Source of the DNA: Thermodesulfobacterium geofontis OPF15
GTDB taxonomy: Bacteria > Desulfobacterota > Thermodesulfobacteria > Thermodesulfobacteriales > Thermodesulfobacteriaceae
DNA length: 64,000 bases
Direction: 5' to 3'
NCBI RefSeq assembly: GCF_000215975.1
Contig: NC_015682.1
Coordinates: 372,001-436,000, forward strand
Both the position numbers and the translations under genes were made by a program. A model generated the notes under the pieces. That model searched no databases. It saw nothing but the letters and a program-made list of their open reading frames with translations, and had not been told where the DNA came from. The first letter of the stretch is position 1. Each line of letters starts with the position of its first letter. Below are positions 7,373 to 24,937 of the stretch, piece by piece.

Positions 7373-9232
7373 TTAGTAATTAAATTTTATGCCAGCATAA
7401 AAAGATCTATCAGGGGTTCCATAGTCTTTTACTTCTTCATAATTAGCGTTAAAAAGATTTTCTACCTTGAGATAAAACTTAATTTTGGGATTGAAAGAAT
7501 AATTAGTAGATAGATTAAAAAGAGAGTAGGATTTTAACTTCTGAGTATTTAAAGGATTTGCAAATCTTTCTCCAGTATAAACATAATCAGCAATAACAGA
7601 AAGGTTTTTGAGAGAGTACTCTAAGGTAGCTTCAGCTTTATGAGAAGGCTTATAAATAAGATATTTTTCTTTATCCCTGTCTTCTGAATCTAAATAGGTA
7701 TAATTAGCTTTTAGGCTTAAGTTTTGAGTAAGTTTTAGGGTAAGATAGACTTCAGCCCCTTTTATAACAGCTTTTCCGATGTTTTGGGGTTGCCAGGTTT
7801 GAAGGTCAAACTGGATAAGATCTTTATATCTTTGGTAAAAAACAGAACCACCTAAAATTAGCTTATTTTCTAAAAAAGTCTTTTCAAATCCAAGATCCCA
7901 CCCTTTTGATTCTTCAGGTTTAAGGTTAGGATTGCTAAAGATGGGATAATAAAGGTCATCAAAAGTAGGAACTCTAAAACTTGTCCCATAGTTAGCTTTA
8001 AGCTTTACATCAATCTTAGGAATTATATAGCTAATTCCTAATCTGTAAGTAGTTTTTTCTCCAAGATTTTTATAATTATCATATCTTAACCCTGCAGTTA
8101 AAAGAAGTTCATTTTCTAAAAGGTAAAGCTTGTTGTTAAGAAAAATCCCAGTATATTCCCTTTTTTTATCATAGCTTGAAGATCCCCAGCTACTTTCAGA
8201 GAGCATTTCTACTTCCTCTCTTTTAAAGTCTAAACCAAAAACCAAAGAATAAGTCTTCCCTAAGTTTAAAAAATTTTCCCAAGAAAAACCCTCTGTAGAA
8301 GGTGTATATCGGGTATAAGGAGACCAACTAATAGGTTCATAATATTTTCTTTGGGAGTAATTCTTATAGATAGAGAAAGTTTGCTTAAATTGTTCAAAAA
8401 GGTCTAAGTTAAGTTTGGCACCAACAAGGTAATTATAGTCTTTTCTAAGGTTTTCTGCATCTTCATCCCAGCCGTCATACTCTATCCTTCCGTAGTTATA
8501 TCTTCCCAAAAATTCAAATCTTACCTTAGGTAAAAGATTAAGCCCTATCTTAGCAGAAGCAAAGGAATTCTTAAACCCGTCTTTTTCCTTTCCATAACGA
8601 TAGGCAGAAAAGCCATCTGTATAGTAATAAAAGGTATTTAACCTAAAGTCAATATTTTTAAGTTCTCCTGATAGTTCAAAAGAGGGTTTATAGGTTCCGT
8701 AAGAACCACCTTCAAGGTAAAGACCGATTTTTGGTCTTCCTTTACCCTTTTTAGTAATAATATTTATTACCCCGGCTACAGCCTCAGACCCATAAAGTGT
8801 GCTTTGAGGTCCTTCAATGATTTCAATCCTTTCTATGTCATCAACCGTTAAACTTCCAAGGTCAACTTGTCCAGAAGAAGGATCGTTGATTTTAAATCCA
8901 TCTATCAAAACTAAGGTGTGAGCTGATTTAACTCCTCTTGGAAGAATAGCTCCTGCTGTCTGACCAGGACCGCCGTTTGCTCTAATGTATAGTTGAGGAA
9001 GGGTTCGTAAAACATCAGTGAGAAAGATAAAATTTTTCTTTTCAAGCTCCTCTTTGGTTATAACGGTTACTTGTGAAGTTACCTCTTTTAAGGGCTCTTC
9101 AATTCTGTCTGCTGAAACTACTACTTCAGGAATTTCTTTAACCTCTTTACTTTCTTCTGCACCAAAAGAAGGAGAAACCAAAGTTCCTAATAAAAAAAGA
9201 AAGCTGAGTTTGTGGAAGACCTTTTTGCTCAT
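7373..9232 (-). CDS. btuB: TonB-dependent outer-membrane corrinoid receptor (BtuB-like)
   Basis: The 619-residue protein has a Sec signal peptide (residues 1-24, ending SFGA), a TonB-box-like segment EVVVSADR near residue 36, and a plug domain with LPRGVKSAHTLVLIDG and IEIIEGPQSTLYGSEAVAGVINI. A 22-strand-type beta-barrel follows and ends in an aromatic-terminated strand (YAGIKFNY), as required for BAM insertion. The plug and length fit the BtuB branch of TonB receptors. The strongest functional evidence is the cobalamin riboswitch directly upstream, which makes vitamin B12 or another corrinoid the expected cargo. It is followed by its own terminator. No BtuCDF genes are in the window. The corrinoid supply is relevant to the AcsC/AcsD corrinoid protein encoded nearby. 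Confidence 0.9.
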   Translation of the reverse strand: MSKKVFHKLSFLFLLGTLVSPSFGAEESKEVKEIPEVVVSADRIEEPLKEVTSQVTVITKEELEKKNFIFLTDVLRTLPQLYIRANGGPGQTAGAILPRGVKSAHTLVLIDGFKINDPSSGQVDLGSLTVDDIERIEIIEGPQSTLYGSEAVAGVINIITKKGKGRPKIGLYLEGGSYGTYKPSFELSGELKNIDFRLNTFYYYTDGFSAYRYGKEKDGFKNSFASAKIGLNLLPKVRFEFLGRYNYGRIEYDGWDEDAENLRKDYNYLVGAKLNLDLFEQFKQTFSIYKNYSQRKYYEPISWSPYTRYTPSTEGFSWENFLNLGKTYSLVFGLDFKREEVEMLSESSWGSSSYDKKREYTGIFLNNKLYLLENELLLTAGLRYDNYKNLGEKTTYRLGISYIIPKIDVKLKANYGTSFRVPTFDDLYYPIFSNPNLKPEESKGWDLGFEKTFLENKLILGGSVFYQRYKDLIQFDLQTWQPQNIGKAVIKGAEVYLTLKLTQNLSLKANYTYLDSEDRDKEKYLIYKPSHKAEATLEYSLKNLSVIADYVYTGERFANPLNTQKLKSYSLFNLSTNYSFNPKIKFYLKVENLFNANYEEVKDYGTPDRSFYAGIKFNY

Positions 9233-9244
9233 GACTCACCCCCT

Positions 9245-9510
9245 CGGGTTTTTTGGGGCTGGAGCGGTCTTCCGGCTTCCGGATCGTCCTACTCGCCGCA
9301 CCTTCCCGGTGCCTTTCGGCACCAGTGGTCTGTCGGCTAAGAGCTTTAAAAAAGAAAAGCTCTTAGCCCAAGAAAGGAAGCCTCCTTTCGGGGAATACCC
9401 TACTTGGGACCTCCTTTCCCATCCGCATAAAAGCGGACAAGCGGCTTTCGTCCCCGGTCACGGCTGCGGGGCAGCGGGGGATTTTCACCCCACTTCCACA
9501 ACTCCGGCCC
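9245..9510 (-). promoter_or_regulatory. Cobalamin (AdoCbl-type) riboswitch
   Basis: Read on the minus strand, the leader holds the conserved core blocks in order: GGAAGTGGGGTGAAAATCC, the B12-box region GCTGCCCCGCAGCCGTGA, a long variable arm with a 12-bp GC-poor hairpin (AAGAGCTTT...AAAGCTCTT), GACCACTGGTGCC...GGCACCGGGAAGG, and the final CGGAAGACC element. The 3' part has a CCCC run, six A residues and then CCCGAGGGGGTGA just before the ATG. The ribosome-binding site GAGGGGG could be sequestered by the upstream C-rich segments, which suggests translational control. High G+C against an AT-rich background is normal for a thermophile's structured RNA. Confidence 0.93.
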
Positions 9511-9517
9511 ACAACCT

Positions 9518-9545
9518 AATATATCATCCCTCTTTAAAAAATCAA
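9518..9545 (-). promoter_or_regulatory. Promoter of the riboswitch-btuB transcript
   Basis: On the minus strand: TTGATT (9545-9540), a 16-bp spacer and TATATT (9523-9518). Transcription would start just before the first conserved riboswitch block. Confidence 0.55.
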
Positions 9546-9604: not shown

Positions 9605-10703
9605 AGTGTCTCATTAATTGTGTAAATACTTGAAAAGTAAAATGGGCATGGTAGCTTCCCCAATGCTTAATAACCAAAACTACCAGAAAGGAGTGGAAGC
9701 TACCATGAAAGAAAAAACTAAAACTTTAACAAAACAACCTATGGAAGAAATTTTAAACTTTTTTTTCAGCAGGAAGTCAATAATCTTATTAAAAACCTTT
9801 TAGAAAAGCTTATGCTTGAAAAAAGAAAAATTTATTTAGAAGAGATAGAAGATTATGCAAACGGTTTTTATATCAGAGATTTACTTACAAAGTATGGGAA
9901 GGTTCAAGACTTAAAAGTGCCTCGGGTCAGGAATGGTGGTTTTCGTCCTGCTATACTTGTATTCACCCCAAAGCGTTTCTCGGTTAATAAAGGTGACCGA
10001 AGATGAAGTAAGGAGTTGGAAAGAAAAAGCACTTTCAGAGGAATATTTGGCAATATTTTTAGATGGAACTTATTTACCTATTCGTCGAAATGAGGTAGCA
10101 AAGGAACCAGTTTATTTAGCTTTGAGGATAAAGCTTGATGGAAGAAGGGAAATACTTGGATTTTGATTATTTGGATCTGAAGGGGAATGATTTACCTGGG
10201 ATAGAAAATGCCATAAAGATGGTTTATCCGTCTTCAGAATGGCAACTTTGTGTATTACATACTGTAAGGAATTCTTTAAATAAGGTGCGGGTAAAAGATA
10301 GAGGTTTATTTGCAGAAGATTTAAAAAGGATATACAGAGCAGAAACAAAAGAAAAAGCTAAGGAGGGGATATTAAGATTAAAGGAAAGATGGGGTAAGAT
10401 ATATCCTAAGGTAGTGAAAAAATGGGAGGATAAAGCGTATGCATTATTAACCTTTTTGAGGTATCCGAAGGAGATAAGGCAGTTTATTTATACAACTAAT
10501 CAGCTTAAAAGATTAGCAAAGGAGATAAAAAGGAGGATAAAGGTAATTTCCGGATGAAGGATCAGCTGAAAGATTGTTATATTTGATCTTGAAAGAGATG
10601 AATGAGAGGTTAAACTCAAAGAGGTTAAGGGGATTTAACGAGATTGAATTGGGGAACTACCATGCCCTTCCCGGAGAAATTTTTACACAATAAAAAAGAC
10701 ACT
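9605..10703 (+). mobile_element. Decayed IS256-family insertion sequence
   Basis: A roughly 1.1-kb element is bounded by imperfect terminal inverted repeats of about 27 bp. The left end starts AGTGTCTCATTAATTGTGTA and the right end, read inward, starts AGTGTCTTTTTTATTGTGTA. A second conserved block just inside each end (GGGCATGGTAG, then TTCCCCAA) supports the boundaries. The element carries one broken IS256-type transposase gene and is shorter than the usual 1.2-1.4 kb because of internal deletions. No clear target-site duplication is seen. The right end abuts a tyrosine recombinase fragment. Confidence 0.88.
9704..10664 (+). pseudogene. IS256-family transposase, multiply frameshifted and deleted
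   Basis: Pieces of one transposase appear in different frames: the start KEKTKTLTKQPMEEIL at 9704; then, after a slip at an eight-T run (9759-9766), the DNA-binding part with YANGFYIRDLLTKYGK and VPRVRNGGFRPAIL; then, after a deletion, SPQSVSRLIKVTEDEV and the catalytic-region piece AIFLDGTYLPIRRNEVAKEP. An in-frame TGA replaces the Trp of the usual ILGFWLFG motif near 10164. Another deletion leads to DLPGIENAIKMVYPSSEWQL and TTNQLKRLAKEIKRR, and a last shift at about 10550 gives AERLLYLILKEMNERL. Of the DDE catalytic residues, the first Asp region and the final Glu region survive, but the stretch with the second Asp is partly deleted. It cannot make a working transposase. Confidence 0.9.
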
Positions 10704-10704
10704 G

Positions 10705-11108
10705 TGTTTAAATCTAACTTGGGATGACATTTTCTTTGAACATAATCTTATCAGAATTAGAAAAGCAAAAAGAATAAAGAAAGATTTGTTCCTATGAGTA
10801 AGATGCTGAAAAAAGCTCTCTTACATTTAAAAACAACAAGAACTGATGACAACCCATTTGTTTTCCCATCACCTAAGACAGGAAAACCTTTAAACGATAT
10901 CAGAAGAGTAATTTTGAAAATAGCAAAAAGAGCAGGAATTGAAAGGAAAATAACACCACATCAGTTAAGGCTTAGCTTTGCAACTCATCTTTTAGAAGCT
11001 GGAGTTGACTTGAGAACCATTCAAGCACTTTTGGGGCATGAAGATATTAAAACAACTCAAATTTATACAAAAGTTGCAATGCCAGTTCTTTACAGAGCTA
11101 TTAATTAA
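10705..11108 (+). pseudogene. Tyrosine recombinase/integrase, 3' fragment
   Basis: Only the C-terminal catalytic half remains. From 10705 the frame reads [21 protein letters not shown]. After a one-frame shift near 10785 it continues [17 protein letters not shown] to the stop at 11108. Catalytic residues still visible are in [22 protein letters not shown] and the final IYTK Tyr. The first catalytic Arg lies upstream in recombinases and is missing because the IS256 right end sits immediately before the fragment. The intact protein would resemble XerC/D or phage-type integrases. It sits 75 bp from the 3' end of tRNA-Thr, the classical place for an integrase gene of an element inserted at a tRNA, so this is probably the scar of such an element. 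Confidence 0.85.
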
Positions 11109-11183: not shown

Positions 11184-11255
11184 AGCCGGCGATGGGATTC
11201 GAACCCATGGCCTGCTGATTACGAATCAGCTGCTCTACCCCTGAGCTACGCCGGC
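11184..11255 (-). tRNA. tRNA-Thr (anticodon CGU)
   Basis: A full cloverleaf is present on the minus strand: acceptor GCCGGCG paired with CGCCGGC, D arm GCTCAGGGGTAGAGC, anticodon stem GCTGA/TCAGC around the loop TTCGTAA (anticodon CGT, reads ACG) and T arm with GGTTCGAATCC. CCA is not encoded. It lies 57 bp downstream of the flavoprotein gene on the same strand and faces the integrase fragment with its 3' end. Confidence 0.95.
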
Positions 11256-12456: not shown

Positions 12457-14847
12457 TCAAACTTCAAGCCAAGATTCAGAAAATATAATTTCTCCTGTTA
12501 AAACTTTTACAGTTTTATATATTTCAAGTTCTTTAGAAGAAAGTGACTGGATATCTATTTTTTCTCCATCCATTATTTTATGAACTAAAGAGACCCATTC
12601 AGGATGTTTACCTTTTGCAATTTCTACTAATTCTTTATCGTATATATCAAGTATTGCACTGTAAAGATTATATTTCATAAGCATCATAAGCATTACTCTA
12701 TTTAAATAAGGTCTTAAATGGGAGGCTACACCATTTGAAACATTTGAAAGACCTACAATTGTTTTAACTCCTGGTGTAATTTCTTGAAGTATAGAAAGAA
12801 ATTTAAGTACCTCTTTAATTTGTTGCACATCAAGGGTTATAGGAGTAAGAACTGGATCTACCCAAATTTTTTCATTGGGTATACCATATTCATTGAGTTT
12901 ATTTACAAGATCCAATGCAAGATCAGCTCTTTCATTAGCATCTCTAAGAAGCCCTTTTTCTCCCCAAAGAAGTGCTACCACATCACAACCAATTTCAGCA
13001 GCAAAAGGAGCAAGTTTATCCAATTTATCTTTATGAATGGTAACTGAATTTATAAGTGCCTTTGAAGGTTGTTTAGAAGCTTTTATTCCTGCAATCATTG
13101 CTTCTGGATTTGTAGTATCAAGAGAAATAGGAATATCTACTACCTCTTCTACAATTTTAACTATCCAAGGAGCAAGTTCTAAAGCATCCTTTTTTGCAGG
13201 TCCAATATTAAGATCTAAATAATCTGCTCCTAACTTAACTCCATCCTTAGCCATTTGTTGAATAGGTTGAGGATTGCGTTCTTTTATAGCTTTACCTATC
13301 CTTTTTGACATTATGTTTATATTTTCAGCAATACAAATTACTTTATAACCGCTTTCTTCTTTTTCCTTTTCAAGTTTTTCCTTTTTTTCTTTTATAGTTT
13401 TTTCTTCTTTTAAAATTTCTATTTTTTCGAATGTCTTTTTCTCTTCTTTTATTTCCCTCTTCTCAGAAACCTTTTCCTCTTTTTTTAATTCTTCTTTCAA
13501 TTCTTCATAAAATTTTTTAAAAAATGAAGGAATCCCGCTTGCCTCTCTTGGCCCAACAATGATTTTCCAGTCAGGAAGTTCATCTTCAAGTTCTCCCTTT
13601 ATTCCTGCTAAATAACCAGGAATTATAAGATTTCTATGTTTAACTTTTTCTTCAATCCCACACTTTTTAACAAAAGGGGCAATGGTATCAGCACCAAATT
13701 TACCTGCTGCCCAAGCTGTAAGAACTGATAAACCATCAGTATCTTTTATGAGAAGCCAAGTAGGAACTCTACTTGCCTCTATTTCCCCACTTACGATAAA
13801 ATAAGTAAGGGCAAAATTGCAGGTTATAGCTACCAGCGAATTTTCATCAGGACCATTAATAGGATAAATCCCCTCTTCAACAACCATAGGTTTTTGAGGA
13901 TCTGTATAAATATTCATTCTTTCTATTAAAAGATTAAATAAAGCTTCTGGCTTAAGATCTGAAAGAATAATAATACTTCCATATTTGCAGATAATCATAC
14001 TTGCAATAAGAATTTCTAATAAATCAGAATCTGTATATCGATAAGGAAAAGTTATAACAGGAAATCCTAAGAGTTTAAATCTACTTTTAATAGCTGATTT
14101 TCTTATAATTACTAAATCTTCAAACAACTCTCTTAATACTTGAGAACCTGGATCAAGAACTAATTCTTTTAAACCTTTTTTAAAAGCCTTTTCAGAAAGA
14201 CTACAAACTTCATCTAAGGATTCTCCAATTATAGTAAGAGGAACCTTTGTTGAAAGAGAGAAATTAGCAAAATCTTCAAAATTTTGAGAATTTGCACCAT
14301 AAATTAAAGGTTTAAAATTATTACATATTTCTATTGCTTTTTTTAGGGTTCCCACATCTGAAGAAGCTAAAACTAAGGCTACCCAAGGAAGTTCATTTCT
14401 TACTTTTTTCACAATCTCTATAAATCTTTCCTCAGAGCCTTCATCTTGCAAAAACAGAGTATCTAATCTTAAAATAGTTCCTACCCTTTCCCATTGAAGT
14501 TTTTTATACAATCCTATTCTTCTTGAAATTTCCTCATCCTTCATATTAGTGGAAATGAGAGTTCCTATAAGAGGAGGATTTTCAAAACGTTTGTCATGCC
14601 TAAATAGAACACTTTCCCCACCCAAAAAATAGACGTAATTACCTCCTCCCAATTCTACTTTTCTAATAGGAGGTGCTAAAGCTTCAGCTATTTCTTCTTT
14701 AATCTTTGGATCAATATAGGGACAAGCATCTATCTCTGCCTGACCAGAAGCTACTTTCATAGCAAAGGCCATACAAGTAGAAAAACCACATTCTTTACAA
14801 TTTGTTTTAGGTAAATACTTTAGTATTTGAATTCCTGTAAGAGCCAC
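12457..14847 (-). CDS. acsC-acsE: Fused corrinoid iron-sulfur protein large subunit (AcsC) and methyl-THF methyltransferase (AcsE)
   Basis: The 796-residue protein joins two enzymes that are normally separate. Residues 1 to about 449 are AcsC (CdhE, gamma subunit). They include the N-terminal [4Fe-4S] motif CKECGFSTC with a fourth Cys in IDACPY, then the TIM-barrel and the C-terminal corrinoid-binding region (GLSVLTAWAAGKFGAD and the VGPREASGIPSF end). A highly charged Lys/Glu linker spans about 450-500. Residues 501-796 are a complete AcsE pterin-binding barrel (ENINIMSKRIGKAI, DYLDLNIGP, SLDTTNPEAM, GLSNVSNG). AcsE moves the methyl group from methyl-THF to the cobalt of AcsCD, so the fusion puts donor site and acceptor in one chain. 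It lies 24 bp after acsB in the same operon. No frameshift or internal stop is present. Confidence 0.92.
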   Translation of the reverse strand: MALTGIQILKYLPKTNCKECGFSTCMAFAMKVASGQAEIDACPYIDPKIKEEIAEALAPPIRKVELGGGNYVYFLGGESVLFRHDKRFENPPLIGTLISTNMKDEEISRRIGLYKKLQWERVGTILRLDTLFLQDEGSEERFIEIVKKVRNELPWVALVLASSDVGTLKKAIEICNNFKPLIYGANSQNFEDFANFSLSTKVPLTIIGESLDEVCSLSEKAFKKGLKELVLDPGSQVLRELFEDLVIIRKSAIKSRFKLLGFPVITFPYRYTDSDLLEILIASMIICKYGSIIILSDLKPEALFNLLIERMNIYTDPQKPMVVEEGIYPINGPDENSLVAITCNFALTYFIVSGEIEASRVPTWLLIKDTDGLSVLTAWAAGKFGADTIAPFVKKCGIEEKVKHRNLIIPGYLAGIKGELEDELPDWKIIVGPREASGIPSFFKKFYEELKEELKKEEKVSEKREIKEEKKTFEKIEILKEEKTIKEKKEKLEKEKEESGYKVICIAENINIMSKRIGKAIKERNPQPIQQMAKDGVKLGADYLDLNIGPAKKDALELAPWIVKIVEEVVDIPISLDTTNPEAMIAGIKASKQPSKALINSVTIHKDKLDKLAPFAAEIGCDVVALLWGEKGLLRDANERADLALDLVNKLNEYGIPNEKIWVDPVLTPITLDVQQIKEVLKFLSILQEITPGVKTIVGLSNVSNGVASHLRPYLNRVMLMMLMKYNLYSAILDIYDKELVEIAKGKHPEWVSLVHKIMDGEKIDIQSLSSKELEIYKTVKVLTGEIIFSESWLEV

Positions 14848-14871: not shown

Positions 14872-17160
14872 TTAGGTAAGGGGAGGTAATTTTAAAACCG
14901 GATGATTCACTTTTTTTACCCAATTAAAAAGTTCTTCCTCTGTATTGACTACACTTTCATCGGCTATTTTTTCAAGAAAATCAGGAACTCCTAACTCTTC
15001 TGCCCTTTTTTGAAGTTTTTCCTTTAACTCTTCTTTAAGTATTTTAGGCATCCAAACAATTCTCAAAAATCCATCTTCTGCGGATATAAATTTTTTAGAA
15101 ATAATATATTGCTTAGAAATACCTAAAAACCCTGGAGTAACTTGTCCTCCTCCTATCATTCCTGCAAGGGTAGAGAATTTAAGTCCTATTGGAGTTTCTT
15201 TATCAAATTCTCGATTTACTATAATGATTCCATTTACTGGTGCAGAAATTGCTGCAATAGCCTCCATACAACCGCATACAGTCATAGGATCATTCATAAT
15301 ACTATATAAACTTACCCTTTCTACTTTCCCTTTTGAGGCTTTTTTAACGAATTCATTTACTCCTTTAAATTGTCCTAATTTTAAATCTATAATCTCTCCT
15401 TTTAAAATGGGCTGATTTGGACCAGCTGGATTAATCTGATAATAAGCTTTTCCATCAAGCCAGCTATAAGCACCACAAGGCCCTCCTCTTTCAGGAGTAA
15501 TTACACAAACATGAGTAGGGGCAAAACTTTGACAAAGGGTACAAGAATAAAATTCTTCTACATTTTCATCTACCATCCCAGCGAGTCTTGCATCTCTTTT
15601 CTCATATATACTTTTTGCTTTTTCTATTAATTTTTTTACCATTTCTTCATCTGTAAAAATCTCTACTTCACATTTATCTACAATGCTACTAAATTCTTGT
15701 TTTATTCTGTTATATAAAATCTCTCCTATATGTTTCAAAAGGAATCCCTTTTCTACTGCCTGTTTACTAATTCTTATCCATACTATATTTCTTTGTCCTA
15801 TATGCATAATACCCTGGGCATAATTGATAAAATAATGAATTTGTCTTTCCATAATAGGTTCAAAATCTTCTTGCATATTAGTGCCAGCTACTTTTATTAC
15901 AATAGCAAGCGGAAGTCTATAAGGTGGACCTTTTTTATCTATTTTGGGAAGATCAGAAATTTCCGGCCCTATCACCCTTATTTCTCCATCTTTAACTTCC
16001 TCAAAAGATGAAGATATTAATAATTCTAAGGCTGATGTTCTCCCTCCTCCACATTCTAAATAAAGATCTTCTTTTCTTACTCTTTCTCCCTCAAAAGCAG
16101 GGGCATAAGAAACTGGGATATTAAGTTTTGTTTTGGTAATTTTTAATCCCCTTACTTCTAAAGCCTTTTCTATTAATTCTTGAGAAGCAATTTCTGGAAC
16201 GGAACTCCTGTAAAACTCTTGATTTTCCATTATTACCTGAAAATAGCAATGAGTAGGTTTGGAAATTAAAGCTTCATAAATACAAATCCCAGGAATTTTG
16301 ATTTCAGGTACAGCCCAATCACAAATTATAGGAATCCCCCAATTTAAAGCTCCTAAACCATTAGCTACCCATTCCTCTGTAGGTGGACCAAAGGTTATTA
16401 CAAAAGCAAAGGTTTTATATTTATTAAAAAGTAAATTATTTATATAATCCCCCGGCTTTACCCCACCAAAAGACATAGCAACTCTACAAGCAAAACCAAT
16501 AGCAAAAACTATACTAGTATAGTGAGGACCAAAAGGTACTAATCTTACTGGCCAACCAAGTTGTAATCCTGCCTCTCTTAAAAGATAGGGCATATAAACA
16601 CCATTGGTTTGATCATGCATAAATACATAAAGTCCTTTTTCAAGAAGGTCTTGAACAATATTTTTAGCTGTTTCTTTATCTGGAGGTGAACCAAGTAAAA
16701 CTGCAAAACCAGGAGAACTTCCATCAACAAATTCTACCCCTCTCTTTCTAAAGATAACATCATCTGCTGCTCCAAGCCAAATATTATCTTCTGTAGGCTC
16801 TTCTGTTTTTGTATATAAATTAGGCTCTTCCAAATATCTTATAGCTTCAACTACTTCTTCAGCAAAAAGAGTTGCCATTCCTGCATCAAGTGCTAACCCT
16901 AAATAAAGAAGACCATTTTTAGATGAAGATAAATCAGGCAGAAGTTTTTTTGCCTCTTGTAAAACTTCTTCACAATCTCCAAGTTTTTTAACAGGATATC
17001 CTAATATGGCATAAATAATAGGTAAATAATAGGCTGTGTTTGGAAATCCTACATTTACTTCTTTACCAAAATTTTTAATAGCCCTTTCATACCTTTCCCA
17101 GGCTTTTTCTAAAATTTTATATGCTCCTTTAATAGCTAAATCAAAAATTATTTTTGACAT
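14872..17160 (-). CDS. acsB: Acetyl-CoA synthase (CODH/ACS beta subunit)
   Basis: AcsB condenses a methyl group from the corrinoid protein, CO and CoA into acetyl-CoA at the Ni-Ni-[4Fe-4S] A-cluster. The 762 residues include the full N-terminal domain that in bacterial enzymes docks onto CODH and carries the CO tunnel; archaeal forms lack it. All A-cluster ligands are present: Cys540, Cys543, Cys552 and Cys562 (in YSCTLCQSF, HVCVI and GGPCGAY) for the [4Fe-4S] unit, and the CGC motif at 629-631 for the distal Ni. It lies between acsD (15 bp) and the acsC-acsE fusion (24 bp). The enzyme looks fully functional, which contrasts with the altered CODH-like partner in the same operon. Confidence 0.96.
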   Translation of the reverse strand: MSKIIFDLAIKGAYKILEKAWERYERAIKNFGKEVNVGFPNTAYYLPIIYAILGYPVKKLGDCEEVLQEAKKLLPDLSSSKNGLLYLGLALDAGMATLFAEEVVEAIRYLEEPNLYTKTEEPTEDNIWLGAADDVIFRKRGVEFVDGSSPGFAVLLGSPPDKETAKNIVQDLLEKGLYVFMHDQTNGVYMPYLLREAGLQLGWPVRLVPFGPHYTSIVFAIGFACRVAMSFGGVKPGDYINNLLFNKYKTFAFVITFGPPTEEWVANGLGALNWGIPIICDWAVPEIKIPGICIYEALISKPTHCYFQVIMENQEFYRSSVPEIASQELIEKALEVRGLKITKTKLNIPVSYAPAFEGERVRKEDLYLECGGGRTSALELLISSSFEEVKDGEIRVIGPEISDLPKIDKKGPPYRLPLAIVIKVAGTNMQEDFEPIMERQIHYFINYAQGIMHIGQRNIVWIRISKQAVEKGFLLKHIGEILYNRIKQEFSSIVDKCEVEIFTDEEMVKKLIEKAKSIYEKRDARLAGMVDENVEEFYSCTLCQSFAPTHVCVITPERGGPCGAYSWLDGKAYYQINPAGPNQPILKGEIIDLKLGQFKGVNEFVKKASKGKVERVSLYSIMNDPMTVCGCMEAIAAISAPVNGIIIVNREFDKETPIGLKFSTLAGMIGGGQVTPGFLGISKQYIISKKFISAEDGFLRIVWMPKILKEELKEKLQKRAEELGVPDFLEKIADESVVNTEEELFNWVKKVNHPVLKLPPLT

Positions 17161-17175
17161 ATAATTATCACCTCT

Positions 17176-18396
17176 TTAACTCATGCTTAAAATATTAAAA
17201 AAAGATTTACAGAGTTCTATAGCTTTTGGATGCCTCATTATTAATAAATTCCCTCCTGCTAAAGCTAATACTACAGCTGTAATTGCCTCCATTAATATAC
17301 CCCTTCCTTCTTGATCTCCAAAAATTTCATCTGTAGGAAGTTGAACTTCTTTTGTACCCCAAACTTCTCTTCCAATAGCACAAACAAAAGGAGACTGTAA
17401 AGCTGTATCTTTATAATAAAGCGCAGCAATTCTTATTCTTTCCATAACAGAATAGGCATATTCAATTCCATATCCCAAAGCACCTATTGAGGGATCTATA
17501 ATTATCTTATCTAACGGAACCCCCATATTTTCAAGAAGTATATTAAGTTGCTTAGCTAAATTTACATCAATAGGAGTTGAAGCAATTATTGGCAAATTAT
17601 ATCCCATAGCAATAGCTCCTAAGGTTCTGTAATTAGTATCTAAGACAGGACCTATAACTGCACCTCTTTCTCCTATTAGTTCTGCAACTTCTTTTAAAAT
17701 CTCTACATCTTTTTCTGAATTTCCAGAACCCCAAATAATAAGTGGGACCTCTATAGCATCCCTTACTTTTTTCACTACCTCCTTTGCATGATTTACATCA
17801 AGATCTAAATAATTAGGATCTGTTCCCTGTAAATAAAGACAAATTGCTTCTGCTTTATAAACTTCAACACACTTTTTCGCCCACAAAGCTGGATCATGAA
17901 AAACATCAGAAAAATATTTAGCTAAACTTTGAGGCCACTCTTCTGGTTTTACATCTAAAATTTCCATAGCAATCTTTATTTCATTTCCCATAGAACCTTC
18001 GAAAAAATAAAAAGGCAAAATGTTTTCTCCACCTATCTTTATAGCTTTTTCTCCTTTTCCAATGACTACTTCTCTTATTTTTTCTGTAGAAATATCTTTA
18101 TATAAATTTTCAGGAATATTTTTTGCCCTCTCTGATAAAGGTCTATATTTAGTTTTAATTTCAATTTTAGGAACTTCAATTTTTACTTTTTCAGGCTTTA
18201 CAATTAATGGTTTTTCCTCTTCTTTTTTCTCTATTATTAAAAGTTTTTTACTAAAAATTTCTGTTTCGAGTTTTTCTATCCCTTCCTCTAAATTTTTAAT
18301 TCCTTCGCTAATACTTTTTAAACTGGACTTCAAATCTGACAAAATATCTATTAAGATTTTCAAAAGTTCTTTTTCATTTTGCATTCTTTCCCCCAA
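17176..18396 (-). CDS. acsD: Corrinoid iron-sulfur protein small subunit with N-terminal coiled-coil extension
   Basis: Residues from about 100 to 406 are the AcsD (CdhD, delta) TIM barrel that pairs with AcsC to hold the methyl-carrying corrinoid. Recognisable segments are GGENILPFYFFEGSMGN, ALWAKKCVEVYKAEAICL, DPNYLDLDVNHA and IDPSIGALGYGIEY. The usual subunit is about 310 residues; this one has roughly 95 extra at the N-terminus. The extension has a heptad-like coiled coil (about residues 8-45, containing LKSISEGIKNLEEGIEKLE) and then a Lys/Glu/Pro-rich tether. The coiled coil resembles the extension on the CooS-like protein of this operon. It is preceded by metF (3 bp) and followed by acsB (15 bp). 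An alternative start at Met5 changes little. Confidence 0.93.
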   Translation of the reverse strand: MGERMQNEKELLKILIDILSDLKSSLKSISEGIKNLEEGIEKLETEIFSKKLLIIEKKEEEKPLIVKPEKVKIEVPKIEIKTKYRPLSERAKNIPENLYKDISTEKIREVVIGKGEKAIKIGGENILPFYFFEGSMGNEIKIAMEILDVKPEEWPQSLAKYFSDVFHDPALWAKKCVEVYKAEAICLYLQGTDPNYLDLDVNHAKEVVKKVRDAIEVPLIIWGSGNSEKDVEILKEVAELIGERGAVIGPVLDTNYRTLGAIAMGYNLPIIASTPIDVNLAKQLNILLENMGVPLDKIIIDPSIGALGYGIEYAYSVMERIRIAALYYKDTALQSPFVCAIGREVWGTKEVQLPTDEIFGDQEGRGILMEAITAVVLALAGGNLLIMRHPKAIELCKSFFNILSMS

Positions 18397-18399
18397 TTT

Positions 18400-19320
18400 T
18401 TATAACACTGGTCTGGGATAAAGTTTTGCTCTTTTAATTATTTCAGGAACAATATATTCCCAGCCTATTGCCATTATGTGAACTCCTTTAATACCTGACA
18501 TTTCTTTAACTCTTTCTATAATCTCTACTGCAATATTTATTCCTTCTTCTTTTTCATCTTTTGCAGAATCCATTCTTTTTATCAATTCATCTGGAACTTC
18601 AATTCCAGGCACTTTGTTTTCTTTTATAAATTTAAGCATCTTTGAAGATTTGGGTGGCATTATACCAGCAAGTATATTAACCTTTTCCAAGATGCCTAAT
18701 TCTTCGCATAAATTTAAAAATTTTTTAAATCTTTCTAAATTATAAACTATTTGAGTTTGAATAAATTTTGCCCCAGCTTTTATTTTTTTTGCCAATCTAA
18801 GGGGCCTAAATTCTAAAGGGTCTGCAAAAGGATTTTCTACTGCCCCTATAAAAAAACAGGGTTTTTTTCCTTTTATCTCATCCCCATTAAAAAATTTTCC
18901 TTCATTTAGAGTTTTTACTAAACTTAAAAGCTGAATTGAGTCTAAATCAAAAACGGGTTTTGCTTGTGGATGATTACCTAAACTTATATGATCTCCAGTT
19001 AAACATAAAACATTCCTTATTCCAAGGGCATAAGCCCCTAAAAGATCGGATTGAATAGCTAATCTATTTCTGTCTCTACAGGTAATATGCATTATAGGTT
19101 CTATACCTTCTTTTATCAAAATAATTGCTCCTGCAAAACTTGACATTTTTACAGTTGCTCTTGGGTTATCTGTAATATTTACTGCATCTACATAACCTTT
19201 TAACCATTTTGCCTTTTCCTTTATGATTTCAGGATCTGCATTTTTAGGAGGTCCAATTTCTGCTGTAACTGCGAATTCCCCTGATTCAAGAATTTTTTGA
19301 AGATTGGTCTTATTTTCCAA
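18400..19320 (-). CDS. metF: 5,10-methylenetetrahydrofolate reductase (large subunit)
   Basis: MetF reduces methylene-THF to methyl-THF, the last step of the methyl branch. The 306-residue FAD-binding TIM barrel begins with the family pattern (FAVTAEIGPPKNADPE) and has the catalytic-region motifs VNITDNPRA, MHITCRDRNR, CLTGDH and a barrel strand QTQIVYN that carries substrate-binding Gln. The start lies 3 bp after the metV stop, so the two are clearly co-translated as a MetVF pair. That arrangement is used by several acetogens and sulfate reducers. The electron source is not visible. The operon's terminal flavoprotein is a candidate but unproven. Length and motifs are normal. Confidence 0.95.
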   Translation of the reverse strand: MENKTNLQKILESGEFAVTAEIGPPKNADPEIIKEKAKWLKGYVDAVNITDNPRATVKMSSFAGAIILIKEGIEPIMHITCRDRNRLAIQSDLLGAYALGIRNVLCLTGDHISLGNHPQAKPVFDLDSIQLLSLVKTLNEGKFFNGDEIKGKKPCFFIGAVENPFADPLEFRPLRLAKKIKAGAKFIQTQIVYNLERFKKFLNLCEELGILEKVNILAGIMPPKSSKMLKFIKENKVPGIEVPDELIKRMDSAKDEKEEGINIAVEIIERVKEMSGIKGVHIMAIGWEYIVPEIIKRAKLYPRPVL

Positions 19321-19323
19321 TCT

Positions 19324-19980
19324 TTACTCCTCTCTTAGCTCTCTTACACCCTCACCACCAGCTAATCTCCAATCTTTTGCTTCCCAAATTTTCATTAAAT
19401 TTTCTAATTTACCTCTGTTTTTAAGCCTCATTACTATTTTATACCATATACAGGGTAAAGTTTTTTTCACTTCACATATACCATTTTTAACCCCTCCGCA
19501 AGGACCATTAAGTAAATTTTTTGGACATCTGGTAATTGGACAAAGACCTGCTGTATATCCGATTATACAATCCCCACAGGCTCTACATTTCTCAACCCAG
19601 TATCCTTCTTTTATCTTTGCTCCTAAAAAAAAGGTGTTAACTCCTGGATATACTTCCATTTTAGGGTATAAATCTGCTATTAAGTTCACTCCTACCCCAC
19701 AACCTAAACTTATTATTGCTGAAACTTTATCCTTAAAATCCTCAATAGGCTTAAGTGCAGATGAATCACATTGCTTAGTTAGGATTTTTTTTAATATTTT
19801 TACTGGTTTCCCAAGTTTTTCTCTTTCCTCTTTTATTTTTTTCGCAAACTTTTTTACTTCTTTCTCAACACCGGTTGAACATCCAAAATCACATTCACTA
19901 CACCCAAGCAAAAGAATTTTATCATAGCTTTCTATATATTCCAAAATTTCATCTAAAGGCTTAATTTTAGTTATTACCAT
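19324..19980 (-). CDS. metV: Methylenetetrahydrofolate reductase zinc/Fe-S subunit MetV
   Basis: MetV (MTHFR C-terminal-type domain) is the small partner of MetF in acetogens and related anaerobes and probably feeds it electrons. The 218-residue protein has an N-terminal Cys set (GCSECDFGCSTG, about residues 26-37) and a dense C-terminal cluster (KCRACGDC, GLCPITRCP, NGPCGG, GICEV) for Fe-S clusters and zinc. It lies 6 bp after the cooS-like gene and 3 bp before metF. The order cooS-like, metV, metF, acsD ties methyl production directly to the acetyl-CoA synthase genes. The assignment is secure from the motif set and its neighbour. Confidence 0.92.
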   Translation of the reverse strand: MVITKIKPLDEILEYIESYDKILLLGCSECDFGCSTGVEKEVKKFAKKIKEEREKLGKPVKILKKILTKQCDSSALKPIEDFKDKVSAIISLGCGVGVNLIADLYPKMEVYPGVNTFFLGAKIKEGYWVEKCRACGDCIIGYTAGLCPITRCPKNLLNGPCGGVKNGICEVKKTLPCIWYKIVMRLKNRGKLENLMKIWEAKDWRLAGGEGVRELREE

Positions 19981-19986
19981 TTTCTT

Positions 19987-22194
19987 TTAAATTCCTAATC
20001 TGTGAATTATGGGAATGTATATTTTTTCATCAAGAGCTCTTCTCATAGCCATATCATAGAAAATTCTTGGTTTAGGCTTATCAATACCATGCTCCTTTCT
20101 TTTCTGCCAAATTCTATCTATTACCATATTTACAAAATCACTTGCTTTAGATGCTATTTTAAAAGTTCCTCCAAAATAATTTTCCATCTCATTAAATAGA
20201 AAATTGGTAGTTTTTTTACTTTCTATGAATGGAAAATCTGCTCCAAAAATAACCTGTACCCCACTTGCGGAAAAATACATTCCTACAGATAGTGCTTTTT
20301 TATTTATCCACTGAGGAATACATACTACAACAGGTAGATCACTTATATCTTTCCCTAAATCCCCTGTATTAATTAATTCTATTAAGGTTTGAAGAACTCT
20401 TGAGTTATCTACCAAAGAACCCATGTGTAAAACTGGGGGACAACCTATCCCTTCTATAACTTCTCTCAATCCTTCTCCTGCCAATTTTGTAGCTTCTTCT
20501 GTTAATAGACCTGCCATCCCTAATTTTATGGCTGAACAACCTGTAGTTAAGACTAATATATTATTAGCTATAAGTTCCTTAGTAAGTTCTACTTCAATAT
20601 TTTCTTTTGTTCCAAAATAATCACATCCTGTGATAACTGCTATTCCTAAAATTTTACCATTAACAAGATTTTCCTTTAAAATCTCTAACCCTGCCCTAAA
20701 TCTACCACCCATAATATACATAAGTGCTTCCAAACTAAATCCTGATATCACTTCTATGCTATCCTCAGGGATATATATTTCTGAATTTTTTCTTTCTTTA
20801 TATTTTGAAAGGGCGATTTTTAAAATTTCTTTTGCACTTTCTAAAGGATAATTTTTATTAAACTCAACATAAATAGCCCCTTCTATAAGAGATTGAGGAT
20901 TAGTAGTAATAATTGTTGTATGGAATTGATTAGCTATTTGAACTATATTTGGTACCACACATTCTCCATCTATTACTATTGCTTCTATAGCTCCAGTTGC
21001 TATAACTGCTTCTTGATGAATAAATGTTCCTAAAACTGGAATTCCTCTTCTCATAAGAAGTTCATTACCTGTATCACAAAGACCTACAAGGTTAATCCCT
21101 TTAGCTCCAATTTCTTTAGTAAGCTCAATTATTTCTGAATTAAAAGAAGCCTCTCTTAATAAATCCGCCATTATAAAATCTTGCCCATGAACTATAACAT
21201 TTACCATATCCTTAAAAATTACGTTTTCCCCAATATTAATGAAAGATCTAACAGGTTGGGGGGTTCCGAAAAGAATATCCTGTAAGTCTGTTGCTATTAA
21301 TGAACTCCCCCAACCATCAGAAAGAGAACATCTTACTGCAGAAAGCAATATATTTTTATAATAGAGATCAACTATAGTAGAGGTTTTATAAAAAAGCTCT
21401 AAAATTTCTTTCTCTATGCCTCTTGGTATAACTTTATATTTTCTCCATTTTTCAATTAAATTTTGTGGAGCCCTATGAATTGAAATTAATTCTCCTTCTT
21501 GTTGGGAAAATATTTGAAATATTTTTTTTACAGTTTCTTCAAGAATTTTTTCTTCTGGAAGATTTAAATCTATTCCTAAGCTATAGGCAAATAATTTAAG
21601 TTTCTTTTTATCTTTTATTTGAAAGGGTATCTCTTTTGTAACAGCTCCTCTAAAAATTTCTGCTATTTTTCTTGCATGTTCTAAATTTGTAGCTGCACCT
21701 TCTGCAATTAATCTTGCAAAATCTTTTGCAGAAACTGCACTTACATCTATCCCACAAATTCCTTTTAAATCTTCTCTATTTTCTATTATTTCACAAGGTC
21801 CTAAATTACAAAGTGTACAAGTTGTTTCTTCTTTTCTGATTTTAACAGACCCTCTTTTTTCTATTCCTTTAGGAATAGTATAAAGGGTAGGCTTTTCTTT
21901 ATGAATTTTTTCATAAAGACTTTCTAAAGTTTTGTTTGAAAGTTCAAAAGTTATTTCTTTCAGAGGTCTTTTATGAATTTTTTCTAAACTTTCTATTTCT
22001 TCAGGTTCCTTTTCCCTTTCAATCTTTTCTACCTTTATCTCTACTTTTACAACCTCTTTAGTGATCTCTAAAATCTTTTCTTCTAATTTTTTGATCCCAC
22101 TTTCTAACAATTCCATTCCTGATTTTAAAGCCTTTGTACCGGTTTTAAGATTTAAAAATATTTCTTTTAGTTTTTCTTCTGAACTTTCTATCAT
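19987..22194 (-). CDS. CooS-like CO dehydrogenase homologue lacking half of the C-cluster ligands
   Basis: The 735-residue protein aligns by eye along its whole core with Ni-CODH (CooS). B-cluster cysteines are intact (C126, C129, C134, C147, from CTLCNLGPC and KGICG). D-cluster cysteines are absent. Of the six C-cluster ligands of Carboxydothermus CODH-II, three core Cys remain (C412 in GEC, C524 in TGCDYFG, C553 in TTGCSA). His261 is Gln338 (VHGQD), Cys295 is Asp374 (GLCDTGNE) and the Ni ligand Cys526 is Leu594 (HMGSLVDNSR). Catalytic His93 is Asn170, while the Lys563 equivalent is kept (K633). Residues 1 to about 100 are an added coiled coil plus tether similar to that of AcsD. A canonical CO2-reducing site cannot form, so the role may be structural, electron-transferring or novel. 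Confidence 0.9.
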   Translation of the reverse strand: MIESSEEKLKEIFLNLKTGTKALKSGMELLESGIKKLEEKILEITKEVVKVEIKVEKIEREKEPEEIESLEKIHKRPLKEITFELSNKTLESLYEKIHKEKPTLYTIPKGIEKRGSVKIRKEETTCTLCNLGPCEIIENREDLKGICGIDVSAVSAKDFARLIAEGAATNLEHARKIAEIFRGAVTKEIPFQIKDKKKLKLFAYSLGIDLNLPEEKILEETVKKIFQIFSQQEGELISIHRAPQNLIEKWRKYKVIPRGIEKEILELFYKTSTIVDLYYKNILLSAVRCSLSDGWGSSLIATDLQDILFGTPQPVRSFINIGENVIFKDMVNVIVHGQDFIMADLLREASFNSEIIELTKEIGAKGINLVGLCDTGNELLMRRGIPVLGTFIHQEAVIATGAIEAIVIDGECVVPNIVQIANQFHTTIITTNPQSLIEGAIYVEFNKNYPLESAKEILKIALSKYKERKNSEIYIPEDSIEVISGFSLEALMYIMGGRFRAGLEILKENLVNGKILGIAVITGCDYFGTKENIEVELTKELIANNILVLTTGCSAIKLGMAGLLTEEATKLAGEGLREVIEGIGCPPVLHMGSLVDNSRVLQTLIELINTGDLGKDISDLPVVVCIPQWINKKALSVGMYFSASGVQVIFGADFPFIESKKTTNFLFNEMENYFGGTFKIASKASDFVNMVIDRIWQKRKEHGIDKPKPRIFYDMAMRRALDEKIYIPIIHRLGI

Positions 22195-22232: not shown

Positions 22233-23135
22233 TTATTCTATTTCATTTGGAAGACCATTCCACATTTTCGCAGATTCTAAAGTATTTTTCATTAACATAG
22301 TAACTGTCATTGGACCAACTCCACCTGGAACAGGAGTAATTGCCCCTGCTTTTTGTTTTACATTTTCAAAATCAACATCTCCACAAAGAATAGCCTTTCC
22401 TTCAGGGGTAATTCCTATTCTATTTATTCCTACATCAATTACTACAGCACCTTCTTTTATCATATCTGCAGTAATAAATTTGGGTTTTCCTATTGCAACA
22501 ATTAAAATATCTGCTCTTTTGGTATGAAAAACTATATCCCGGGTTCCTGTATGACATACTGTAACAGTTGCATTTCCTATAAATTTTCTTTTTTGCATAA
22601 GAAGGTTAGCAATGGGCTTCCCAACAATATTACTTCTTCCTAAGACAACCACCTCTGCTCCTTCAACTGGACAGCCAATTTTTTCTAAAAGTACAAGTAT
22701 TCCGTAGGGAGTACAAGGTAAAAAACAGGGTTCTCCCATAACCATTTTACCTACATTAATTGGATGAAAACCATCTACATCTTTTTTAGGGTCTATAGCG
22801 TTTATAATCTTTCTCTCATTTATATGTTTTGGTAAAGGAAGTTGAACTAATATACCATGAATTTTGGGATCCTTATTATATTTTTCAATTAGTTTTAATA
22901 ATTCATTTTCTGAAACATTTTCTGGAAGCTTTTCTTCAATAGAATAAAACCCAAGACTTTGAGAGACTTTTTGTTTTCCTTTAACATAGGAAATGGAAGC
23001 AGGATCTTCTCCTACTAAGATAGTAACTAATCCAGGAACAATATTGTATTTTTCTTTCAATTCTTGAACTTCCCTTTTGATATTCTCTCTTATTTCCTGA
23101 GCTATAGCTTTACCATCTATTATTTTGGCTGACAT
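22233..23135 (-). CDS. folD: Bifunctional methylene-THF dehydrogenase/methenyl-THF cyclohydrolase
   Basis: FolD interconverts formyl-, methenyl- and methylene-THF, here the middle steps of the methyl branch. The 300-residue protein has the substrate motif with catalytic Tyr and Lys (SISYVKGKQK near residue 48), VQLPLPKHI, the DVDGFHP signature, the NAD(P)-binding GRSNIVGKP segment, and the C-terminal PVPGGVGPMTVTML. Everything expected of a working enzyme is present. It lies 14 bp after fhs and 38 bp before the cooS-like gene on the same strand, so it belongs to the same transcript. Confidence 0.96.
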   Translation of the reverse strand: MSAKIIDGKAIAQEIRENIKREVQELKEKYNIVPGLVTILVGEDPASISYVKGKQKVSQSLGFYSIEEKLPENVSENELLKLIEKYNKDPKIHGILVQLPLPKHINERKIINAIDPKKDVDGFHPINVGKMVMGEPCFLPCTPYGILVLLEKIGCPVEGAEVVVLGRSNIVGKPIANLLMQKRKFIGNATVTVCHTGTRDIVFHTKRADILIVAIGKPKFITADMIKEGAVVIDVGINRIGITPEGKAILCGDVDFENVKQKAGAITPVPGGVGPMTVTMLMKNTLESAKMWNGLPNEIE

Positions 23136-23149
23136 TTTAACTCCTAAAG

Positions 23150-24937
23150 CTAAAATAGACCTTTTACTCTTCCTGTATTTACATCCACATCAATTCTTCT
23201 ATAAGCTGGATCTGAACCAGTACCAGGCATAAGTTTTATCTCCCCTGCAACAGGTACTATAAAACCTGAGCCTTTATATATAAGAATATCTCTAATTCTA
23301 AGATTCCATCCCTTAGGAACTCCCTTTTTGCCTGGATCATCAGAAAGGGAAAGATGTGTTTTTACCATACATATAGGAAATTTTTTAATTTCTTCATTAG
23401 CTTCTATTAATTTAATTTTTTCCTCTGCGGTAGCGGAATAAATAACTTCATCTGCTTTATAAACTTCTTTTGCTATCTTTTCAATTCTTTCTTTAACCGG
23501 TTCATTTAAATCATAAAGATGTTTAAATTCATTTTTTTCTTCACAAGCTTCGATCACTGCATCTGCAAGTTCTAAAGCTCCTTCCCCTCCTTTTAGCCAA
23601 TGATCAGATATAGCAACCCTTACTTTTGCATTTTCACATATTTTTTTTACAAGGTTTAGTTCATTTTTAGTATCTGTATAAAATCTATTAATACACACTA
23701 CTGGAATAGTACCACTTTTCTTTACAATCTCTATGCAATGTAAAAGATTTTCACATCCTCTTTCTACCCAAGAAAGATTTTCTTCATAGTATTCTTTTGG
23801 GATAGAAGCACCAGGTTTAAGCTCAGGTGCCCCTCCGTGATATTTAAGTGCTTTTATAGTTACTACTATTACTGCTGCATTAGGCTTAAGCCCAGAAATT
23901 CTACATTTAACATTCCAAAATTTTTCAAAACCTATCTCTGCACCAAATCCAGACTCAGTAATTACATAGTCTGCAAGTTTTAAAGCTGTATAGTCAGCTA
24001 TAATAGAAGATTGTCCTAAAGCAATATTACCAAAAGGAGAGGTATGAACCAAAATAGGATTCCCTTCTATAGTTTGTACAAGATTAGGATTAAGGGCATC
24101 AACCAGTAAAACTGTCATAGCTCCTGCAACTTCTAAATCTTCTGTAGTAATTGGATTACCGCGTTTATCAAAGGCAACTACAATTTTCCCTATTCTTTCT
24201 CTTAAATCTTTTAAATCCTTAGCTACTGATAATATAGCCATTACTTCTGAAGCTCCAGAAATATAAAATTTGCTTTCCATTAGATATCCATCCATTTTAC
24301 CACCAAGCCCAATAACTATATTTCTTAATGCTTGGGCACAAAAATCCATTACCCATCCCATTTCAACTCTTTTAGGATCTATATTAAGCCTTTTTAATCC
24401 TTTTTTGATCAAAATTTCATCATCATAATTTGCTTCATGTTGCATTCTTGCTGTAAGAGCAACCATAGCAAGATTATGAGCATTCATCACTGCATTTATA
24501 TCTCCTGTAAGTCCCAAAGAAATTTTATCTAAGGGAATAATTTGAGAAAGCCCTCCACCTCCTGCACTTCCTTTAATATTAAAAACAGGTCCGCTTGAAG
24601 GTTGTCTTATAGTACCTATAACTTTTTTACCTCTTCTCCCAAACCCCTGAACTAAACCAATTAAGGTGGTAGTTTTTCCTTCACCTAAGGGAGTTGGAGT
24701 TATAGCTGTGATATCTATGTATTTCCCATTAGATTTGTTTTTAAATCTTTCCAAAACCTTTTTATAATCAATTTTACCAATATAATGCCCATAAGGTATA
24801 AGTTCTTCTTTTATTAAACCTATTTCTTCAGCTAATTCATATAGAGTTTTCATATTTTTTTCTGCTTCATAGGCTATTTCCCAGTCTTTCATTTTTGTAG
24901 GATCAAGTTTTATTTTTGTTTTAGCTCCCATTTCCAA
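23150..24937 (-). CDS. fhs: Formate--tetrahydrofolate ligase
   Basis: FTHFS activates formate onto THF with ATP, the entry of CO2-derived formate into the methyl branch. The 595-residue protein has the P-loop TPLGEGKTTT near residue 81, RQPSSGPVFNIKGSAGGGG, and the C-terminal metal and THF regions (CMVKTHLSLSDDP, PVAGEIKLMPGTG). It is slightly longer than the usual 555-560 through an N-terminal start that overlaps the end of galE by 28 bp. A second Met two codons in (24931) is equally possible. Formate dehydrogenase is not in the window. Position and motifs make the call secure. Confidence 0.96.
   Translation of the reverse strand: MEMGAKTKIKLDPTKMKDWEIAYEAEKNMKTLYELAEEIGLIKEELIPYGHYIGKIDYKKVLERFKNKSNGKYIDITAITPTPLGEGKTTTLIGLVQGFGRRGKKVIGTIRQPSSGPVFNIKGSAGGGGLSQIIPLDKISLGLTGDINAVMNAHNLAMVALTARMQHEANYDDEILIKKGLKRLNIDPKRVEMGWVMDFCAQALRNIVIGLGGKMDGYLMESKFYISGASEVMAILSVAKDLKDLRERIGKIVVAFDKRGNPITTEDLEVAGAMTVLLVDALNPNLVQTIEGNPILVHTSPFGNIALGQSSIIADYTALKLADYVITESGFGAEIGFEKFWNVKCRISGLKPNAAVIVVTIKALKYHGGAPELKPGASIPKEYYEENLSWVERGCENLLHCIEIVKKSGTIPVVCINRFYTDTKNELNLVKKICENAKVRVAISDHWLKGGEGALELADAVIEACEEKNEFKHLYDLNEPVKERIEKIAKEVYKADEVIYSATAEEKIKLIEANEEIKKFPICMVKTHLSLSDDPGKKGVPKGWNLRIRDILIYKGSGFIVPVAGEIKLMPGTGSDPAYRRIDVDVNTGRVKGLF

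Follow-up and report, generated by a model that had tools for sequence, protein, structure and literature searches.

Degenerate carbon monoxide dehydrogenases (CODHs) encoded in acetyl-CoA synthase (ACS) gene clusters have already been listed as the Cdh-type structural groups A-4 and A-6 (Inoue et al. 2019, PMC6344411). In Dehalococcoides, ACS works without a CODH and the CO leaves the cell (PMC7005905). Clade D CODH-V and the hybrid cluster proteins have the CODH fold and are reported to be without CO2/CO activity (PMC13056359). Sequences gapped at cluster or acid-base positions were discarded in a recent genomic survey (PMC13056359), and AcsA was assigned by BLAST coverage in a survey of Desulfobacterota (PMC12827605); under such procedures, proteins like the one described here can be missed or miscounted. 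A literature search that covered few subscription papers found no relevant pairing of "pseudoenzyme" with CODH/ACS.

The window analyzed here is a stretch of 64,000 nucleotides from Thermodesulfobacterium geofontis OPF15 (NC_015682.1, positions 372,001 to 436,000), and coordinates refer to it unless another locus is named. It carries an ACS operon that encodes a degenerate CODH homologue. Judging from the residues lost, this protein very probably performs no CO2/CO catalysis. The preferred reading, to which we assign a probability of about 0.6, is that it serves as a non-catalytic ACS subunit (a pseudo-CODH).

The ACS operon and the ligand residues of its CODH homologue

The CODH gene (19987..22194, minus strand) encodes 735 aa in an intact reading frame. 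The Pfam Prismane family matched residues 125-680 with 410 bits, which places the protein in the Prismane/CO dehydrogenase fold family as a homologue of the CooS/AcsA-type Ni-CODHs. On the NCBIfam equivalog model CO_DH_cata (TIGR01702), it scored 474.3 bits, slightly below the curated cut-off of 478; the canonical orthologue of the congener G155 scored 579 bits. A phmmer comparison with solved CODHs (6t7j, 6b6v, and others) gave E-values down to 1e-132, and the ligand motifs aligned gap-free. A CODH/Prismane match was present in 28 of the 30 genomes compared in the family. The AlphaFold model built from four sequences had a mean pLDDT of 38.6.

The same strand carries genes for AcsC fused to AcsE (CFeSP large subunit and methyltransferase, 12457..14847), AcsB (acetyl-CoA synthase, 14872..17160), AcsD with an N-terminal coiled coil (17176..18396), MetF (18400..19320), MetV (19324..19980, 6 bp from the CODH gene), FolD (22233..23135), and the formate-THF ligase Fhs (23150..24937). 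AcsB contains the N-terminal CODH_A_N domain, and its A-cluster ligands (four Cys plus Cys-Gly-Cys) are intact, as in every AcsB of the family that covers the region, including those encoded beside degenerate CODHs. An AMP-forming acetyl-CoA synthetase is present in addition to the intact ACS, CFeSP, methyltransferase, MetVF, FolD, and Fhs. AcsC and AcsE form one ORF in the degenerate clade and are separate genes in most relatives; the reverse applies to MetF and AcsD, separate in OPF15 and fused in relatives. The AcsB proteins of OPF15 and G205 share an insertion of about 22 residues (around residues 303-325), which is absent in G213 and other relatives. Just downstream of the operon, fragments of a Mutator-family transposase and a phage-type integrase (10135-11108, plus strand) adjoin a tRNA gene (11184-11255, minus strand). 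A cobalamin riboswitch (Rfam, 48 bits; 9246-9521, minus strand) was found upstream of a TonB-dependent receptor gene (7373-9232, minus strand).

The preliminary description, with Carboxydothermus CODH-II as a reference, had reported the loss of three C-cluster ligands, of His93, and of the D-cluster, and our alignment and ligand table confirmed each of them. The C-cluster equivalents His261, Cys295, and Cys526 are replaced by Gln338 (VHGH to VHGQ338; 21181..21183, minus strand), Asp374 (GLCCTGNE to GLC373-D374-TGNE; 21073..21075, minus strand), and Leu594 (HMGSCVDNSR to HMGSL594VDNSR; 20413..20415, minus strand), respectively, so that three of the six ligands (His plus five Cys) are substituted. 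From the acid-base pair His93/Lys563, the lysine is kept (K633) and the base is replaced by Asn170 (GAAAHSDH to GAATN170LEH173; 21685..21687, minus strand). Both D-cluster cysteines of the dimer interface, located just ahead of the B-cluster Cys, are lost: the Cx7CC motif seen in relatives is missing, with V at residue 117 and T at residue 125. The residues described earlier as kept were found in the ligand table as well, namely C412, C524, and C553 (equivalents of C333, C446, and C476), the four B-cluster Cys (C126, C129, C134, and C147; 21754..21819, minus strand), and K633; the adjacent equivalents of Cys294 (C373) and His96 (H173) are also retained. Against the solved CODHs, the His/Cys ligands were still missing at the gap-free motifs.

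The general divergence of the protein was gauged on 198 positions invariant in 24 canonical relatives, of which it retains 151. Its losses are concentrated at the metal sites beyond this divergence, and chance is ruled out: 6 of the 9 C-cluster/D-cluster/His93 positions are lost versus 41 of the 189 other invariant positions (Fisher p = 0.006). The positions lost in all four degenerate orthologues described below gave a similar contrast (4/9 metal/His93 positions versus 13/189 others, p = 0.004).

Degenerate orthologues, selection, and associated gene losses

Degenerate orthologues of this type were found in four species of the genus: T. geofontis OPF15, G205 (69% identity), and the pair G213 and G208 (60%). 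All four frames are intact, without a stop or frameshift, and all remaining AcsA-type relatives whose sequence was read retain all ligands. The losses of the D-cluster (both Cys), His93, and His261 and the gain of an N-terminal extension are common to the four proteins, which also retain the B-cluster and the equivalents of C446, C476, and K563. They differ at the positions of Cys294 (C, G, G, G), Cys295 (D, E, C, C), Cys333 (C, C, deleted, deleted), and Cys526 (L, C, C, C, the loss being specific to OPF15), and the His261 position is occupied by Q, N, E, or K. Such varied losses after a common first step fit relaxed constraint on a dead site and argue against a conserved replacement cluster.

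A new cluster on the three remaining Cys plus Asp374, suggested in the preliminary description, was rejected because these residues are not conserved among the orthologues: Glu or Cys stands in place of Asp374, and two of them lack Cys412. In a broader version of this idea, the protein would still be a redox enzyme with a rebuilt metal site and altered chemistry, either like that of hybrid cluster proteins (HCP) or new. The residues C524, C553, C585, and C625, which are Cys in all four orthologues, the Glu at the Cys295 position of G205, resembling hybrid cluster proteins, and the existence of CODH groups with HCP-like active-site residues (PMC6344411) speak for it. Nevertheless, such a site is very unlikely given the varying ligand sets and the missing CooC-like chaperone (see below); 22/24 and 14/24 canonical members also have Cys at positions 585 and 625, respectively, and a newly gained Cys set in the degenerate clade was rejected on this ground.

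The pairwise dN/dS values of the degenerate CODH genes were 0.26 (OPF15-G205), 0.22 (G213-G208), and 0.28 (OPF15-G213), single values being rough as dS is high in some pairs. The values of the operon neighbours were mostly 0.06-0.16, with MetV reaching 0.26 in one pair. The gene is under purifying but relaxed selection, and in the sense of purifying selection on four intact orthologues, the earlier statement that it is not decaying holds.

Two further CODH-family loci were observed in the genus. Genome G155 encodes two CODHs in tandem (L032:10093-13900). The first is canonical; the second lacks His261, Cys294/295, and Lys563 and has kept the B- and D-cluster Cys. This second copy might be a third, independent degeneration or an intermediate step; it lies on a long branch in the CODH tree, where its placement is not trusted. 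In G210, a CODH-family protein (L059) resembling clade C has Tyr at the place of His93, Thr at that of Cys294, and Gln at that of Lys563.

The degenerate operons also lack genes found in the canonical ones. In canonical relatives, HdrA-MvhD-HdrC-MvhD2 separate CODH from MetV. The HdrA-MvhD-HdrC module was found at this place, ahead of metV, in 11/11 canonical and 0/8 degenerate operons (p = 1e-5, a value that ignores relatedness, since the eight degenerate operons fall in two clades and thus represent only about two independent losses). A small MvhD-like remnant persists in the operons of the second clade. A CooC-like P-loop ATPase, named here by its place beside canonical cooS and its GCxC motif rather than by a curated model, scored 154-223 bits in 18 of the 19 genomes with canonical AcsA, the exception being G222 (111 bits). 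In the six genomes with a degenerate CODH only, the same search gave at most 92 bits, from a different paralogue; as a guess, this widespread paralogue (83-92 bits) could serve ACS maturation. The formate dehydrogenase of the operon was dropped as a marker of co-loss: it is present in G155, G100, and G212 but was not seen after AcsE in the canonical G209 and G211, so the gene is not diagnostic.

With the ligands, the D-cluster, and the CooC-like Ni chaperone all lost, the absence of CO2/CO catalysis proposed in the preliminary description is the most economical reading. An ordinary active CODH with tolerated substitutions would agree with the location in an ACS operon, with the reported CO2 requirement of the organism, and with the lack of another fixation route among the markers tested. 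It is scarcely credible for a protein in which three of six C-cluster ligands (including Cys526), His93, the D-cluster, and the chaperone are lost, and mutations of the C-cluster and acid-base residues are reported to lower activity (PMC6344411).

A cluster-free remnant in a second clade and the proposed role

In four genomes (G065, G028, G206, and G214), AcsB and the same gene order are accompanied by a protein of 470-490 aa at the CODH place (L097:11943-13358, L098:12006-13475, L099:7055-8467, and L100:9876-11291). About 410 of its residues are CODH-related, the cluster Cys are missing, and a 2[4Fe-4S] ferredoxin domain is fused to the C-terminus. Neither the middle region (His261, Cys295, and Cys333) nor the N-terminal cluster region can be aligned to CODH; the C-terminal tail motif is retained. 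The fused ferredoxin may derive from the C-terminal ferredoxin of HdrA, the neighbour of CODH in canonical relatives. In both the AcsB tree and a five-gene tree, this clade is apart from the OPF15 clade, with canonical genomes between them. The AcsB branches of both degenerate clades are long, and a single origin was disfavoured only narrowly (AU p = 0.053 for AcsB and 0.048 for five genes). On the preferred reading, a dead CODH has been retained, probably twice, as a non-catalytic subunit of a CODH-independent ACS.

The remnant is weakly constrained, with dN/dS of 0.43-0.63 in close pairs, and this value, together with the reported CO2 need of T. geofontis, counts against a retained subunit. 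The carbonyl branch might instead be decaying in the genus, the OPF15 protein slowly dying without a function and staying in frame owing to its operon place or a recent loss. Both degenerate forms evolve faster than their neighbours, the Hdr module and the CooC-like chaperone are gone, the 99%-complete congener G210 has no AcsB and no ACS, and no cdh/acs genes were reported for Ca. T. torris (PMC9539880). An ongoing loss nonetheless appears unlikely, as dN/dS in the OPF15 clade is far below 1 across an amino-acid divergence of ~30-40% and none of the four species has acquired a stop or frameshift; 119 of the 198 invariant positions (~60%) are kept in every one of the four orthologues, a new N-terminal extension with a conserved core has been gained, and each of the two clades has held the gene in place.

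The N-terminal extension of about 85 residues (21940..22194, minus strand) is predicted to be helical and is not found in canonical CODHs; its core, EIFLxLKTGxKALKSG, is conserved in all four degenerate orthologues. The local score between the extension and the N-terminal coiled coil of AcsD was 84, versus 48 +/- 7.7 in 1000 shuffles, none of which scored as high; the shuffles preserved composition and ignored the heptad pattern, so the resemblance is suggestive only. The C-terminal tail KPRxxxDMxMRR (19990..20085, minus strand) is conserved in canonical, degenerate, and cluster-free remnant proteins and is a candidate docking element.

Under the preferred reading, a former AcsA-type Ni-CODH that no longer assembles a working C-cluster would bind and organize AcsB and the corrinoid protein, docking via its conserved core, the conserved C-terminal tail, and the new N-terminal coiled coil. 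The reason for keeping it would be that AcsB depends on a partner of CODH shape to assemble or to control its conformation. A scaffold for AcsB, among the functions considered in the preliminary description, is the best remaining one, and it is strengthened by the second clade, which keeps a cluster-free remnant beside acsB. The B-cluster and the C446, C476, and K563 equivalents are not required by a scaffold, and their retention counts against pure scaffolding.

An electron-transfer subunit, also considered earlier, would use the B-cluster for the reductive activation of ACS/CFeSP or for MetVF, the fused ferredoxin replacing it in the second clade. The part of this proposal that stood is the presence of all four B-cluster Cys in the four orthologues and the gain of the 2[4Fe-4S] domain by the remnant; the loss of the Hdr module also deprives MetVF of its usual partners. 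Against the electron path, all four proteins have lost the D-cluster, through which the B-cluster is known to connect to the surface, and with it the known exit route. The B-cluster may serve folding only, and with 60% of the invariant sites kept in all four proteins, four kept B-cluster Cys are not unusual. This role is therefore considered quite unlikely.

Carbon metabolism and comparison with known systems

A Prismane family search of the closed single-contig genome (1,634,377 bp) matched only the OPF15 homologue, leaving no place for the second canonical CODH supposed earlier; hybrid cluster proteins belong to the same Pfam family and are therefore also absent. The genome thus combines an AcsB having an intact A-cluster with no CODH that would be functional by its ligands. 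T. geofontis is reported to require CO2 and to use H2 or formate as donors (PMC3624685), and the Desulfobacterota survey cites its description together with those of chemolithoautotrophs (PMC12827605). The best matches to the glycine cleavage P-protein (glycine decarboxylase) were below the cut-off throughout the genus, with none in OPF15, and RuBisCO was not found in the genus. A citrate synthase/ATP-citrate lyase domain was absent from 14 genomes of the genus, in a search whose scope excluded Re-citrate synthase. With no marker found, the reductive glycine, citrate-based, and RuBisCO routes were rejected as replacements. For the close relative Ca. T. torris, a study reported no cdh/acs and suggested an rTCA cycle (PMC9539880); the lack of a citrate synthase-family domain makes this cycle doubtful for the genomes examined. 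The T. geofontis cultures may have contained acetate or some other source of carbon; otherwise, a route beyond the tested markers exists.

ACS itself is intact and would probably run without CODH. Acetate would be converted to acetyl-CoA by the AMP-forming acetyl-CoA synthetase, and ACS would then cleave acetyl-CoA as in Dehalococcoides, releasing CO and CoA and passing the methyl group to folate metabolism. The cleavage direction is proposed tentatively, with slightly less than even confidence; alternatively, ACS might build acetyl-CoA from methyl-THF and outside CO. Autotrophic acetyl-CoA synthesis by ACS without a canonical Ni-Fe C-cluster, with CO from a novel source or metal site (including a rebuilt site on C524, C553, C585, and C625), is highly improbable.

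If the preferred reading is correct, CODH also fulfils a second task in the CODH/ACS complex, a non-catalytic one that selection maintains after catalysis is lost. The genus would then provide a graded natural series for testing this task, from an active enzyme through a core without C- and D-clusters and a remnant fused to ferredoxin to complete loss. Surveys based on homology alone could count such genomes among those with a complete Wood-Ljungdahl (WL) pathway, and the carbon source of a species reported to require CO2 would come into question.

Clade D CODH-V and the hybrid cluster proteins resemble the OPF15 homologue in having a CODH fold without CO2/CO activity, which for the latter is predicted. 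Both retain a defined hybrid-type cluster and are not known to be encoded in ACS operons. The AcsA/CooS-type Ni-CODHs of CODH/ACS (Moorella 1mjg, C. autoethanogenum 6ytt, and the canonical orthologues) share with it the fold family, the operon position with AcsB, AcsCD, and AcsE, the B-cluster, Lys563, and three of five C-cluster Cys. Unlike them, the OPF15 homologue lacks the C-cluster His, two C-cluster Cys, His93, the D-cluster, and an adjoining Hdr module and has an 85-aa N-terminal extension. Dehalococcoides mccartyi has AcsB and AcsCD without CODH and uses acetyl-CoA as a methyl donor, the same chemistry as proposed for OPF15 (PMC7005905). According to the description of Dehalococcoides, CODH, AcsE, and MetF are absent there (PMC7005905), whereas OPF15 retains the other WL genes and a CODH-derived protein.

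Comparison with the published CODH clades, suggested in the preliminary description, showed that the residue pattern of the OPF15 homologue (D-cluster none; C-cluster Q,D,C,C,C,L; acid-base N,K) fits no listed group, corresponding to no row of Table 2 for groups A-1 to G-1 (PMC6344411). Groups A-4 and A-6 are the most similar in kind: they are encoded with ACS subunits and have no D-cluster, and both their C-cluster and their acid-base set are incomplete (PMC6344411). They differ in being Cdh-type (clade A) with E- and F-clusters (F incomplete in A-6), and their substitutions (D,P..Q,R and N,S..H,L) are functionally unexplained (PMC6344411). In contrast to these groups, the OPF15 homologue is of the CooS/AcsA type, occurs in a cultured species, and belongs to a traceable series of losses.
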